A stretch of 64,000 nt of DNA, taken from positions 310,001 to 374,000 of the forward strand of contig NZ_VCEJ01000004.1 of NCBI RefSeq assembly GCF_005860805.1. Reading direction: 5' to 3'. The translations under genes and the position numbers were made by a program. The stretch comes from Dyadobacter luticola. Lineage in GTDB: Bacteria; Bacteroidota; Bacteroidia; Cytophagales; Spirosomataceae. A model generated the notes under the pieces. The model searched no databases. It was given only the letters and a program-made list of their open reading frames with translations, and had not been told where the DNA came from. Positions 13,069 through 61,991 of the stretch are shown here, piece after piece (the stretch's first letter is position 1; each line of letters begins with the position of its first letter).

Positions 13069-13680
13069 ATGGAGACTCAATCATTTACCAACAACCTTAA
13101 GTCTGTGTATTCTCAAAAAAATGTACTTGAAAATCTGTTCGGCAGAGTCGTAAAAAGTGGAGATTACCAGGCATTCCGCGAGCTTTTCACAAATCATTAC
13201 AGGGCGCTGTGCAACTATGCCATGCGGGTGGTGGTGACGAGGGAAATTGCCGAAGAAGTGGTTTCTGATGTATTTGTAAAACTTTGGAAAAATCGCGATC
13301 AGATTGAGGTTCATACTTCATTTCAGGCTTACATTTACAGGGCAGTTCGCAACCAGGCACTCGATTATCTCAAACTTCGGGTACATCGCCAGAACGAGAG
13401 GGAGTCGCTGGAATCGGTTCAGTGGAATATGACCCATGCCGATCACTTCTCGCCTGTTGAAGAACTTTCCTTTAACGAATTTTACGCACACATCGAAGGA
13501 TGTATCCAGGCGCTTCCACGCCAATGCCAGCTGATTTTCAGGCTGAGCAGGGAGGAAGGGCTGCGTTACCGCGATATCGCCGAGCGCCTGGAAATTTCAG
13601 TCAAAACCGTTGAAACGCAGATGAGCCGGGCATTAAAAGTTTTGCGCGAGCGTGTACCGGAACATCGATTAGTAGCATAA
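13069..13680 (+). CDS. ECF RNA polymerase sigma factor, FecI-like Bacteroidota type
   Basis: A 203-residue sigma-70 family ECF factor. Region 2 is at about residues 28-100 ([46 protein letters not shown]) and region 4 at about 140-195 ([35 protein letters not shown]). No anti-sigma (FecR-like) or SusCD gene is adjacent, which is unusual for this class. Instead uxuA begins 14 bases downstream on the same strand, so the sigma gene appears to be the first gene of the uronate operon. Whether it activates this operon or a distant uronate-polymer uptake locus cannot be seen. Confidence 0.9.
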
Positions 13681-28658: not shown

Positions 28659-28810
28659 TCTTATTCAATTCTTTTTAAACAATATTACAGTGGGTCTTTT
28701 TTGCAAAAACTCAGATTGTAAAAGTAGATAATAAAGTTTATTTTAATTTTTCAAGCTTTCAAGCAACCGTCTTTTTGGTTTGCACGTATAAGTGAAAAAA
28801 AGCGAATAGC

Positions 28811-29380
28811 ATGCCCGAGTATAACTCCGCCGTTCTTCATGAACTACTCGACGGCTGTTTAGAAAAAAACCGCCGCAGTCAGGAGCTGTTGTATAAACAG
28901 TTTTACGGCTATGCTATGAGTATATGTTTACGCTATACACGGAGCCGGGATGAGGCAAAAGAGATTCTAAACGACGGATTTTTAAAGGTTTTTACCAAGC
29001 TGGAAAGCTTCGATCAGAGCCGACCTTTTAAGACCTGGCTGGGACGGATCATGATCAACACAGCGCTGGACCATTACCGGCAGGAAGTGCGCAGGGATGT
29101 GTTTGATGATGTGGAAGTAGCCGACCAGGTGTCTGTTGACGAAACGGTGATCAGTAAACTGGCCCATGAAGAGCTGGTGGCCCTGATCCAGAAACTTACG
29201 CCCTCTTACCGGATTGTATTCAGTTTATCAGTGATCGACGGCTATACACACGAAGAAATTGCAGAGCAGCTGGGTATTTCGGTCGGAGCGTCGAAATCAA
29301 ATTTGTCGCGTGCAAGAGAAAAATTGAGAGAAATGTTATCCAAAATTAATATTGACGACTATGATAGAGTTGCCAGATGA
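28811..29380 (+). CDS. ECF RNA polymerase sigma factor
   Basis: A 189-residue ECF sigma factor. Region 2 reads YGYAMSICLRYTRSRDEAKEILNDGFLKVF and PFKTWLGRIMINTALDHYRQE (about residues 35-100). Region 4 reads LTPSYRIVFSLSVIDGYTHEEIAEQLGISVGASKSNLSRAREKL (about 130-175). Its last 20 bases overlap the start of the next gene, whose product looks like its anti-sigma partner. The pair is therefore a self-contained signalling unit that probably responds to outer membrane state. Confidence 0.93.
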   Translation: MPEYNSAVLHELLDGCLEKNRRSQELLYKQFYGYAMSICLRYTRSRDEAKEILNDGFLKVFTKLESFDQSRPFKTWLGRIMINTALDHYRQEVRRDVFDDVEVADQVSVDETVISKLAHEELVALIQKLTPSYRIVFSLSVIDGYTHEEIAEQLGISVGASKSNLSRAREKLREMLSKINIDDYDRVAR

Positions 29381-30893
29381 CGAACTGGACAAGCTCTTCA
29401 GAAAGTCATCCGAAGAGCTTGATCCACACTTTGACCCAGCAGACTGGGACAGTCTGAAAAAACGGCTTGACCAGCAGGATGGAAAGACTGCGGGCGGCTG
29501 GCTCAAAAAATGGTGGCCGCTGGGAATGCTGCTCCTGCTGATCCCGGCCGGAATCGCATCGTACTACTGGGTGTCTTCCAGAAATGAAGAAGCCAGGAAA
29601 TTGCAGCAGCCGACGGTGACAGCAGCTCCGAAAACCAGTGCGGAGAATGTTACCGAAGCAAATACTGAGGATTTGAACAAAACAGCAGACCGTGAAAAAA
29701 TAACTGGTTCAGAAAAAATAGCAGGTTCGGAAGATGCTGCTTCGGAAAATGCTGATTTTAAAAAGACAATAGATTTAGAAAAAGAAAATAACATTAAAGA
29801 AAGCCCTGCTGTAAAAGTAGAAAAGCCGGTTGCCAGCATTGAGAAACCGGTGAAAGTAAATAGGATTTATCACGATGAGAAGTTAGCAAATAGAATCAAC
29901 AGTAGTTCAAAATCATTGCCCCGGAGCCAATCTAAGGCAGGCGGAGTGTACTTAGAGCCTAACCGCTCAAAGACGGGAGGAGGCGACGGGGCTCTTATTT
30001 TATCCAGTGAAAACAAAAACCTTATAAGCGACTCTAGAAGGACCGTTGCCTCCGAACTTGGGGCAAGGAAGGTAACTGGTCCTGACGGGGTTGGAGCGGA
30101 AGCTGGCAATATTGAAGGTAAAAATCTGGAAGGTGTCTCAAATGTTTCAGAACAAAAACTTTTGATCTCTGCTTCGATGCTTGACGGAAGGTCTTTGACC
30201 TGGAAAAACAGCATTCCTTATCCTGGTATTGTAATAGAACCAAATGATCAGATACGAGCAGAATCTTCGGCCGGATCAAAAGATATTGAGGTGATCGAAT
30301 CACCAAAGTGGGCGATCAGACTAGGTTATTCTCCGGATCTGAGTACGGTAGGTTTCAAGAATTTCACGAAACCAGGCGCTGCCTTTTCATTGCTCGGAGA
30401 ATATGGAATTTCCAAGAGACTATATGTGCAGGCAGGTGTGGTAAGAAGTGTAAAAGATTACTACGCCAATGCCAGTGAGTATAAATTGAATAAATATGTT
30501 ACGGATATCAACACTCCTTATGGGGTAGATGGAACTTGTACCATGTTTGAAATTCCTATCGGAGTAAGGTTTGATATTGCGCAGATGCCACATTCCAGAT
30601 GGTTTGCTGGGACCGGATTTTCATCGTACTATGCTCAGAAGGAGAAGTATACCTATTATTACAAAGAATATAAACATAATCAAAGACCAGGTTGGGAAGG
30701 TAAAACAGGCTTGTTTCTCCTCAGTCACCTGAATGCATCTGTCGGTTATGAGCATACCATCACGAGAAAACTCTCCATCCTGGCCGAGCCGTACGTAAGA
30801 ATCCCTTTGAAAGGGGTTGGTTATGGTAAGGTAAACCTGTTTACGACAGGTGCATGGCTGTCCGTACGTTACACGCCAGCGTTTTACAGGTAA
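29361..30893 (+). CDS. dual-membrane-spanning anti-sigma factor candidate (Dma-like)
   Basis: A 510-residue protein with an unusual layout. Residues 1-48 are a short acidic helical segment (DELDKLFRKSSEELD, then FDPADWDSLKKRL) suited to bind a sigma factor in the cytoplasm. A single hydrophobic helix follows at about 51-71. Next comes a low-complexity linker of about 240 residues rich in S, E, K and P. The last 195 residues (about 314-510) look like an outer membrane beta-barrel, with alternating hydrophobic strands, WAIRLGYSP, aromatic girdles and a terminal SVRYTPAFYR. Proteins of this type were described in Bacteroides thetaiotaomicron as Dma regulators of vesiculation. The start is ATG 29361, overlapping the sigma gene by 20 bases. 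Confidence 0.8.
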   Translation: MIELPDDELDKLFRKSSEELDPHFDPADWDSLKKRLDQQDGKTAGGWLKKWWPLGMLLLLIPAGIASYYWVSSRNEEARKLQQPTVTAAPKTSAENVTEANTEDLNKTADREKITGSEKIAGSEDAASENADFKKTIDLEKENNIKESPAVKVEKPVASIEKPVKVNRIYHDEKLANRINSSSKSLPRSQSKAGGVYLEPNRSKTGGGDGALILSSENKNLISDSRRTVASELGARKVTGPDGVGAEAGNIEGKNLEGVSNVSEQKLLISASMLDGRSLTWKNSIPYPGIVIEPNDQIRAESSAGSKDIEVIESPKWAIRLGYSPDLSTVGFKNFTKPGAAFSLLGEYGISKRLYVQAGVVRSVKDYYANASEYKLNKYVTDINTPYGVDGTCTMFEIPIGVRFDIAQMPHSRWFAGTGFSSYYAQKEKYTYYYKEYKHNQRPGWEGKTGLFLLSHLNASVGYEHTITRKLSILAEPYVRIPLKGVGYGKVNLFTTGAWLSVRYTPAFYR

Positions 30894-30972: not shown

Positions 30973-31476
30973 ATGGAGACTCACAAACCAGAAACTATGA
31001 AACGGGGAGAATTCCTGAGAAGCCTTGGGCTTAGTACCTCCACATTGATGGCATTTTATTGCATCGGAACCACCATGACCGCCTGCGGTTCCAGCAGCGA
31101 CAATGACCCTACACCTGACCCGGGGACTGGAACAGGTACAAATGGCATCAGCGGAACAACGACAGGCAGCGCGATCAACTTTACCGTGGATCTTACCAAA
31201 GCTACCGGGCTAGCCGCCGCCGGAGGTTTTCAGGTAATCGGCGATACGATTGTGGCACATACCGCCAGCGGATCATACGTGGCGCTTTCGAAAACGTGTA
31301 CACATGAGGGTACTACCATCGGGTTCCGTCCAGCGCAAAACGATTTTAGGTGTCCAAATCATGGTTCTGAATTTTCTACAACCGGTGCGGTAGAAGAAGG
31401 ACCTGCCACAACTGCCCTCAAAGCCTACAAAACGGCGCTGTCTACCGACGGAAATACACTTACAGTTACAGCTTAA
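30973..31476 (+). CDS. Rieske [2Fe-2S] lipoprotein-like protein
   Basis: A 167-residue exported Rieske protein. The cluster ligands are C109 and H111 in CTHEG and C127 and H130 in CPNHGS, with 15 residues between, which is the normal Rieske pattern. The N-terminus (KRGEFLRSLGLSTSTLMAF) resembles the export signals of Bacteroidota redox proteins and ends in TMTACGSS, a possible lipobox. A linker rich in D, P, T and G follows, so the domain is probably tethered to a membrane in the periplasm. I start at ATG 30973; an upstream frame overlaps the barrel gene end. The gene leads an operon with the DUF5777 and YceI genes. Confidence 0.88.
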   Translation: METHKPETMKRGEFLRSLGLSTSTLMAFYCIGTTMTACGSSSDNDPTPDPGTGTGTNGISGTTTGSAINFTVDLTKATGLAAAGGFQVIGDTIVAHTASGSYVALSKTCTHEGTTIGFRPAQNDFRCPNHGSEFSTTGAVEEGPATTALKAYKTALSTDGNTLTVTA

Positions 31477-31489
31477 ACTGCACATCTTT

Positions 31490-32380
31490 ATGAAGTCACT
31501 CCGCCTGATAGTGTTGCTGATTTGCTCAGCAACAGGTGCTTACGCACAAGATGATTTATTAAATGAGCTTTCCAAGCAGGATAGTTCGCAAAAAGTACCG
31601 GTTACCGCCACATTCAAATCGACGCGGGTTGTCAACGGACAATCGGTGGAGACGATGAAGAAAAAGCACATGGACTTCCGGATCTCGCATCGTTTCGGAA
31701 AGCTGAATTCCGGCGCGTACCAGTTTTTTGGGCTAGACCAGGCGACGATGCGACTAGGATTTGAGTACGGGCTCACCGACGATTTCATGATCGGGGTAGG
31801 ACGCAGCACGAACCAGAAAGCCTATGATTTTTTGGGGAAGTTGAAATTGCTGAAACAAAGTTCAGGCGCGGGCGCTATGCCCATTTCGGTGACGGCGTTT
31901 GGTAGTCTGGCGATTGCTACCCTCAACAAAGAGCTCGAATTTCAGGATAAGATCACCTACACTGCGCAGATCCTGATTGCCCGGAAATTCGGAGAAAGGC
32001 TTTCGCTGCAACTTTCACCAAGCTTTTTGCACCGGAATCATCCGGATGTAACCGGCGACGAAAAGGTGCTGCTCGCGATGGGAATCGGCGGGCGGTACAA
32101 GATCTCGAAACGGGTATCTATCAATGGTGAGTATTTTTATACGGCCAGAGAAAAAAATACGCAGACCGCGCCTTACTACGATTCCATGTCGTTCGGGGTG
32201 GATATCGAAACCGGCGGGCACGTTTTCCAGCTGCATTTTACTAACTCGCTGGGAATGATTGAAAAGCAATTCATCGGCGAGACGGCGGGGAGCTGGGGCA
32301 AAGGCGACATTCACTACGGTTTCAACCTGTCGCGGACATTCAGCTTCGATAAAAAGAATAAAAGAGTATCCAACAACTGA
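31490..32380 (+). CDS. DUF5777 family beta-barrel outer membrane protein
   Basis: A 296-residue exported protein with a cleavable signal (residues 1-19, ending AYAQ). The sequence then shows repeated amphipathic strands (MDFRISHRFGKLN, ATMRLGFEYGLTDDFMIGVGRS, YKISKRVSINGEYFYTA, VFQLHFTNSLGMIE) as in DUF5777 proteins, predicted outer membrane barrels. It begins 13 bases after the Rieske gene and ends 14 bases before the YceI gene. The three-gene set suggests a periplasmic electron or lipid/quinone handling function, but no direct evidence of substrate is visible. Confidence 0.85.
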   Translation: MKSLRLIVLLICSATGAYAQDDLLNELSKQDSSQKVPVTATFKSTRVVNGQSVETMKKKHMDFRISHRFGKLNSGAYQFFGLDQATMRLGFEYGLTDDFMIGVGRSTNQKAYDFLGKLKLLKQSSGAGAMPISVTAFGSLAIATLNKELEFQDKITYTAQILIARKFGERLSLQLSPSFLHRNHPDVTGDEKVLLAMGIGGRYKISKRVSINGEYFYTAREKNTQTAPYYDSMSFGVDIETGGHVFQLHFTNSLGMIEKQFIGETAGSWGKGDIHYGFNLSRTFSFDKKNKRVSNN

Positions 32381-32394
32381 CCAACTAACAAACT

Positions 32395-32961
32395 ATGAAA
32401 CTGCATTTGAGTCGCGCGGTCATGCTTACCGTGCTCAGTATCGCTTTGTGTTCTGGTAGTGTTTTCGCCCAGGGAGGCATGTTTTCGACTTCATCCGGCT
32501 TTACGCGTTTCATATCGGCAACACCTTTGGAGAATGTGGATGCGAAGAATAACAAATGTCAGGTGATCCTGAATACGGCCAACAATCAGCTCGCGATCCG
32601 GATGAACATGCGCGATTTTGATTTTCCCAATAAATTAATGCAGGAACATTTCAATGAAAACTACATTGAATCGGCCAAATACCCGACGGCCACATTCAGC
32701 GGTACGATTGACAAGGCTCCTGATTATTCAAAAGACGGAGAATACGACGCCTCGGCAACCGGAAAATTCACCGTGCACGGCGTGACGAAAGAGCGGACGA
32801 TCAAAGGAAAAATGAAGATTGAGGGCGGAAAAATCACAATTACTTCTGAATTTGAAGTACCTCTGACCGATCACAAAATCGAAGTGCCACAGGTGGTTTT
32901 TGTGAAAATCGCGCAGATTATCACGGTGAAGACGGAATACGCGCTTTCGCCGAAGAAATAA
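32395..32961 (+). CDS. YceI family periplasmic lipocalin-like protein
   Basis: A 188-residue secreted protein with a signal peptide (residues 1-25, ending VFAQ) and a YceI-like beta-barrel that in characterised members binds a polyisoprenoid. Typical pieces are RMNMRDFDFPNKLMQEHFNENYIESAKYPTATFSG, TGKFTVHGVTKERTIKG and ITSEFEVPLTDHKIEVP. It is the last gene of the Rieske operon and is followed by a strong terminator shared with the convergent beta-galactosidase gene. Confidence 0.92.
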   Translation: MKLHLSRAVMLTVLSIALCSGSVFAQGGMFSTSSGFTRFISATPLENVDAKNNKCQVILNTANNQLAIRMNMRDFDFPNKLMQEHFNENYIESAKYPTATFSGTIDKAPDYSKDGEYDASATGKFTVHGVTKERTIKGKMKIEGGKITITSEFEVPLTDHKIEVPQVVFVKIAQIITVKTEYALSPKK

Positions 32962-61797: not shown

Positions 61798-61824
61798 TGT
61801 ATTGTTGTTTTTAGGATTAATAAA

Positions 61825-61900
61825 GCCCTGTCTAAGGTGTCCTAATGCACACAATACGAGGCATCCGGGGGCTTTCGCCGGATCCGCACCATAACAGGGC
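61825..61900. ncRNA. candidate structured RNA between two divergent genes
   Basis: GCCCTGT (61825-61831) and ACAGGGC (61894-61900) can close a domain that contains a hairpin ATCCGG/CCGGAT (61863-61868, 61878-61883) and a small GTGT/ACAC stem (61837-61840, 61849-61852), a three-way-junction layout. On the minus strand the larger loop contains GGCGAAAGCC, a GAAA tetraloop candidate. It sits about 28 bases before the small gene's ATG on the minus strand. No known RNA family recognised; strand unclear. Confidence 0.35.
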
Positions 61901-61991
61901 AGTTCGTCTAAGAGTTTTCATTGGTATTGTGTTTATAGGAATTCGAAAATTCGGGAAGTGGGAGGAGAAAAGCAAATCGGGGATTGGCATT

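Follow-up and report, generated by a model that had tools for sequence, protein, structure and literature searches.

The question raised by this locus is what kind of protein is encoded next to an ECF sigma factor of Dyadobacter luticola, and what the pair may control. The window, i.e. the whole stretch of 64,000 nucleotides that was analysed out of a 6.4 Mb genome, carries the sigma factor gene at positions 28811–29380 (plus strand, 189 aa) and, at positions 29361–30893 of the same strand, an open reading frame for a 510-residue protein. Both genes are found where the first-pass annotation had placed them. The sigma gene ends at position 29380, so that 20 bp are shared with the second gene. 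Pfam searches of the first product show Sigma70_r2 (E = 2.4e-15) and Sigma70_r4_2 (E = 6.5e-19) matches, and its identification as an ECF sigma factor is confirmed by these and by its tree position given below. The second product is a predicted anti-sigma protein, as judged by homologue alignment, a structure model and profile comparison. The reading preferred here, with a probability of about 0.75, is that it is an anti-sigma factor of the Dma/Reo type that spans the envelope. It would free the sigma factor upon a change at the surface or in the assembly of the outer membrane, the sigma factor then driving its own operon and a lipoprotein gene.

The 510 aa sequence displays no Pfam match at E-values up to 1, FecR included, and its sole NCBIfam match is to a barrel family, with 14.5 bits against a cut-off of 135. 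Homologues occur almost throughout the genus (35 of 36 congeneric genomes) and in a minority of the other relatives (6 of 22). An alignment of 32 Dyadobacter proteins shows that residues 1–70 and 315–510 are conserved, with a mostly variable linker between them. A chance open reading frame, considered as a candidate, is ruled out by the congeneric homologues together with the conservation of both ends.

The family was also searched for more widely, with a profile of 12 members and 395 genomes of 171 genera. Matches are found in 57 genomes and 35 genera, the window genome counted, and the family reaches another class (family f42, by its kinship label). The neighbourhoods were read at all 40 listed places with an E-value of 2.3e-36 or less outside the window genome and one other genome (G054). 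A sigma factor gene is situated directly upstream in every one of these 40 places outside Dyadobacter, and in 28 of them the two genes overlap. No relative was detected by tblastn among 108 stretches of viral contigs. A plasmid search, with the orphan paralogue described below as query, gave one weak barrel match, in Bernardetia.

The N-terminal residues 1–50 (positions 29361–29510, plus strand) form a predicted cytoplasmic domain of a sigma-binding-like type. This segment is part of the conserved block in the 32 Dyadobacter proteins and has a profile match to proteins of other genomes that is given below. It is followed by a predicted single inner-membrane helix at residues 51–73 (positions 29511–29579, plus strand). 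The single helix had been proposed before, and the hydropathy maximum of the 510 aa protein, at residues 54–72, agrees with it. The strongest hydrophobic stretch lies within residues 48–80 in 41 of 42 rows (the exception is L048); the 42 rows count the window protein a second time in truncated form, and two of the orphans among them are nearly identical. A full-length structure model built from three sequences is poor (mean pLDDT 30.7). At this low confidence it displays a helix at residues 26–79, and pLDDT values are below 50 from residue 74 onward.

Residues 74–314 (positions 29580–30302, plus strand) appear from alignment and composition to be a variable, disorder-like periplasmic linker. 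A length of about 240 residues had been estimated; the count is 241, of which 78% are disorder-promoting and 2% aromatic. Across 38 rows of the family the linker length ranges from about 148 to 324 residues. The Dyadobacter alignment reveals one conserved island within it, at residues 186–212 (LPRSQSKAGGVYLEPNRSK..GGDGA, positions 29916–29996, plus strand), whose core is kept in 31 of the 32 proteins. Such an island amid variable sequence could be a contact for a protease or for peptidoglycan. It would thus suit a different reading, i.e. that the one chain is split in the periplasm, which would leave the barrel as a separate outer-membrane protein and the N-terminal part as an ordinary inner-membrane anti-sigma factor. 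However, the remaining Dyadobacter protein (L013), the orphan paralogue and the seven other-genus proteins checked all lack the island and nevertheless have the long chain with both conserved ends. The one-chain layout, with both ends, is moreover present in two classes. Periplasmic cleavage is therefore considered unlikely, and an uncut chain that spans the envelope is retained as the preferred reading.

The C-terminal residues 315–510 (positions 30303–30890, plus strand) constitute a predicted 8-stranded outer-membrane beta-barrel. The domain has 196 residues, close to the ~195 first proposed, and 17% of these are aromatic. The strand prediction suggested earlier as a check was run on residues 306–510 with AlphaFold2, and shows eight long strands (mean pLDDT 68.3; the modelling was good in two of five models). 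A Foldseek search of the PDB with this model gave 40 matches at an E-value of 0.001 or less, of which 39 are titled outer-membrane barrel proteins. The fortieth comes from the Bacteroides barrel-assembly machine, and from its title one cannot say which kind of chain it is. The top matches are Ail, OmpA, Pla, NspA and OmpW, and the OmpX kind is also found; TM-scores are moderate, the best being 0.62 on the query side. A soluble C-terminal domain is rejected on the basis of the eight-strand model and the 39 of 40 barrel matches. In addition, PF13568 is matched at an E-value of 0.1 or less by 8 of 12 family members, the window protein not being among the eight. The model and its PDB matches thus predict for the C-terminal domain a barrel of eight strands in the outer membrane, similar in kind to OmpA, OmpX and NspA.

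The conservation of the barrel bears on what it may do. Outer parts show no significant difference from inner parts (p = 0.14; p = 0.19 for strand halves), and sensing at the surface is therefore without evidence from this comparison. The same result would suit a reading in which the barrel is an anchor and a monitor of its own assembly, such that failed folding or insertion, i.e. outer-membrane damage, frees the sigma factor and no ligand is sensed. The response of published relatives to antibacterial toxins and oxygen, as given in the available parts of PMC9308784 and PMC13114119, is also in its favour. On the other hand, five single residues near the outer end of the barrel (Y367, C393, E428, Y430 and G487) are 96%–100% conserved in 46 proteins, and these would hardly be needed by a bare anchor. 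The assembly monitor is a real possibility with somewhat less than an even chance. In the preferred reading the change that releases the sigma factor may arise either at the surface or in the assembly of the outer membrane.

In B. thetaiotaomicron, proteins termed Dma1-3 are described together with Das1 and Das2 (PMC13088901, available part). The likeness to the window protein lies in the order of parts: an N-terminal domain, sigma-binding in Dma and putatively so in the window protein, then a helix, a disordered tether and a barrel, with an adjoining ECF sigma gene. The discussion section of that paper states that the signal sensed by Dma-type proteins is not known. A second described type is EcfO-Reo of Bacteroides fragilis and Phocaeicola vulgatus, likewise an anti-sigma factor across all compartments and a proposed sensor of outer-membrane stress (PMC9308784 and PMC13114119, as far as their available text goes). 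The NigD gene family has been linked to Dma1 and Reo in print. Proteins from NigD-bearing genomes (families f29 and f30) were used as stand-ins for the B. thetaiotaomicron Dma and the Reo proteins.

Five NigD-bearing genomes were searched for PF13568 and 11 regions were taken. In seven of these, a sigma factor gene is found directly before, or overlapping, a gene for a protein of 409–439 aa with the same layout, and two of the seven pairs (L257 and L258) are divergent to a NigD gene. An eighth region (L264, 3265–4905) shows sigma factor, helix, linker and PF13568 barrel in one protein; this resembles Dma3 as described in print.

The likeness between the window family and the seven NigD-genome proteins is visible by profiles only. 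The window-family profile recovers four of the seven, with E-values from 3e-11 to 6e-4. When profile is compared with profile, the barrel matches at 98.2% (E = 3.4e-14 over 123 columns), a match that is unspecific on its own because many outer-membrane proteins have that fold. The N-terminal domain with the helix matches at 95.8% (E = 7.8e-9), falling to 46% without the helix. The best of 60 column shuffles of the N-terminal match has a score of 17.0, and the real score is 46.5. Since both ends match sigma-linked barrel proteins of NigD-bearing genomes, the resemblance to Dma in the first-pass annotation is borne out as architecture and as homology. By architecture and profile, the 29361–30893 protein is a divergent member of the Dma/Reo type, and its subfamily is set apart by a promoter of its own and by the genes that often share the operon.

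Two further suggestions made earlier do not fare as well. A member outside the gut was taken to extend the class; this is overstated, as the available text of PMC13088901 already has Dma proteins "found solely among Bacteroidota", and a non-gut member is therefore expected. A link to vesiculation is unsupported, there being no NigD_N match in the window genome and a different operon content. The neighbours of Dma2 in B. thetaiotaomicron are DUF4943, DUF4858 and a predicted reductase-like protein (PMC13088901, available part), in contrast to Rieske, DUF5777 and YceI proteins in the window. The window pair also differs from the B. thetaiotaomicron Dma pairs, compared here by their partly available description, in having its own sigma subgroup and its own conserved promoter. 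The EcfO-Reo system differs in that the Reo-side regulon includes nigD genes and that O-antigen length is affected, according to the accessible portions of the two papers. The literature searched held no paper joining Dyadobacter and anti-sigma factor.

The sigma factor was placed in a tree of 90 sigma factors, in which many branches are long and the bootstrap has not settled. The window sigma and those of the NigD-bearing genomes form a group of 68 rows (support 100/97). Within this group the window sigma belongs to a subgroup of 52 rows (99/99), apart from a seven-row group of the NigD-bearing genomes. Sigma factors of the Dma family belong to group ECF21; the window sigma is placed here by the tree, relative to sigma factors of NigD-bearing genomes.

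FecI-FecR systems also pass an outer-membrane event on to an ECF sigma factor. An ECF sigma factor with a membrane protein is the usual FecI/FecR layout, and at least seven such pairs are present in the window genome; the pair could thus be read as a FecR-like regulator of a TonB-dependent receptor system. FecR, however, is a separate inner-membrane protein that acts with a receptor, whereas the window protein has both ends in one chain. The N-termini of seven FecR proteins of the window genome (FecR domain present in 7/7), used as a control, match the N-terminal profile at 10%. The first-pass statement that the linker shows no FecR homology agrees with the lack of a Pfam FecR match in the protein. 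The seven FecR-linked sigma factors of the genome are in a separate group of the tree, and the genes downstream of the pair are Rieske, DUF5777 and YceI genes. A FecR-type regulator is refuted by domain content and is very improbable.

A predicted ECF-type promoter, GCAACC-N16-CGTA, is situated at positions 28763–28788 (plus strand) and ends 22 bp before the start codon of the sigma gene. The same motif is found 20–25 bp before the sigma start codon in all 33 Dyadobacter loci read (31 aligned loci plus L014 and L015; L016 and L054 have identical anti-sigma proteins and are not independent), and its surroundings vary. Outside the genus, GCAACC is present in 41 of 46 upstream regions (shuffled mean 2.3, maximum 7), and the two-part pattern GCAACC-N15-18-GTA in 26 of the 46 (0.1 when shuffled). 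As a control, the anti-sigma genes themselves were searched: 19 of the 46 contain bare GCAACC, and one contains the two-part pattern. In family f42, GCAACC is invariant in 12 of 12 aligned upstream regions and the −10 part is changed.

The motif alone does not serve to predict a genome-wide regulon: in most genomes the counts are near those of the reversed control. The window genome has 12 sites and the reversed control 8, so most of the genome sites are due to chance and single sites mean little. The surroundings of motif sites were read in 56 of 71 places, 14 of the 56 being picked for a spacer that looked recurrent or AT-rich. One site, found by this selection of recurrent spacers, lies 42–45 bp before the start of one lipoprotein gene in seven of seven Dyadobacter genomes; the hexamers are conserved there and the spacer varies. 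The lipoprotein has PF03640 secreted repeats (window-genome copy at L222, 1437–2291; E = 3.2e-38). The leader of the lipoprotein gene is also conserved, so part of the promoter conservation may have other causes.

The anti-sigma gene is followed on the plus strand by three genes of the same operon. These encode a Rieske [2Fe-2S] protein (operon gene 3, positions 30973–31476; PF00355, E = 1.5e-11), a DUF5777 membrane beta-barrel protein (gene 4, 31490–32380; PF19089, E = 9.7e-97) and a YceI-like protein (gene 5, 32395–32961; PF04264, E = 1.3e-13). YceI and/or DUF5777 genes are located within five genes of the pair, on the same strand, in 30 of the 40 places outside the genus, and both are found in 27; ten pairs have neither nearby. 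This linkage spans six families and two classes: 2/3 places in f1, 2/2 in f12, 1/1 in f19, 16/16 in f42, 4/10 in f23 and 5/8 in f22. In four places in f42 the module is in front of the pair, not behind it. In the window genome, 32 regions with other sigma genes were examined, and neither YceI nor DUF5777 is found in any.

DUF5777 is distributed more widely than the Dma family (153 of 395 genomes). Fifteen DUF5777 loci were sampled away from the known Dma places, and the genes shown around each were examined. All 15 show YceI, which in two cases is encoded on the opposite strand, and 12 have a Rieske or CxxCH protein. Fourteen of the 15 have no Dma protein among the genes shown; a sigma-Dma pair is found at L276 only. 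A second Rieske-DUF5777-YceI module of the window genome (L268, 3470–7529) has genes for a response regulator and a histidine kinase in front of it, where the first module has the sigma-Dma pair. From the sampled loci and this second module it follows that the module is the constant part and the regulator varies; the module is often under control other than Dma. Its job may be redox or metal protection of the envelope. The literature searched contained no paper naming DUF5777, none joining YceI, Rieske, Bacteroidetes and sigma factor, and none joining YceI, Bacteroidota, outer membrane and copper.

The window genome also has a paralogue of the anti-sigma gene without an adjoining sigma gene (L043, 8974–10383). 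It is surrounded by genes for two E1-E2 ATPases, of which one has a heavy-metal domain, for a DUF2279 protein and for a bestrophin, and this island of P-type ATPases is nearly identical in another species (G026, L044). Another orphan paralogue is found in G054 (L046). The N-terminal block of the window-genome orphan is close to that of the window protein (41% over residues 1–94), and the orphan may therefore hold the same sigma factor.

Some other sigma genes of the window genome can be mentioned. Those at L063, L064, L065 and L070 overlap genes for proteins of 410–501 aa with a similar-looking layout, and L071 may be a fifth. The family profile matches L063 and L065, and a weak PF13568 match is seen in L064 alone. 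At L067 (2735–4237) a 500 aa frame has a sigma domain and further C-terminal sequence with no barrel match. Within the window, the gene after another ECF sigma match, at positions 13183–13656, encodes not an anti-sigma factor but a UxuA mannonate dehydratase, at a distance of 14 bp. A c4-2 RNA (Rfam RF02944) is located at positions 61822–61901 on the minus strand.

The preferred reading can be set out as follows. Residues 1–50 would bind the sigma factor and keep it in the cytoplasm, a single helix would pass through the inner membrane, the flexible linker would cross the periplasm, and the eight-stranded barrel would be inserted in the outer membrane, its loops exposed on the cell surface; the protein would thus be located in both membranes. 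If the surface or the assembly of the outer membrane changed, the barrel or the linker would be altered, and the N-terminal domain would then free the sigma factor. The freed sigma factor would use GCAACC-N16-CGTA promoters to transcribe the operon that it belongs to (sigma, anti-sigma, Rieske, DUF5777 and YceI genes) and at least one PF03640 lipoprotein gene elsewhere in the genome. We infer from this an autoregulated inside-to-surface switch over an envelope redox module. A wider proposal is tentative and rather doubtful, i.e. that the subfamily is a phylum-wide surface-to-gene switch dedicated to a redox module of the outer membrane that has not been described before and consists of a Rieske or haem lipoprotein, YceI and DUF5777, with orphans in copper islands recapturing the same sigma factor.

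What is new here is the surroundings of the pair: the promoter, the operon partners and the putative lipoprotein target. In these non-gut bacteria the subfamily is often accompanied by the module, its promoter is exactly defined and a second putative target gene is conserved, and with these the question of what the barrel senses and the pair controls comes down to a small set of direct tests. The sigma-Dma linkage provides a regulatory context for the DUF5777 barrel family. The envelope redox genes that are frequent neighbours of the pair across the phylum offer a testable guess at what the switch may control.
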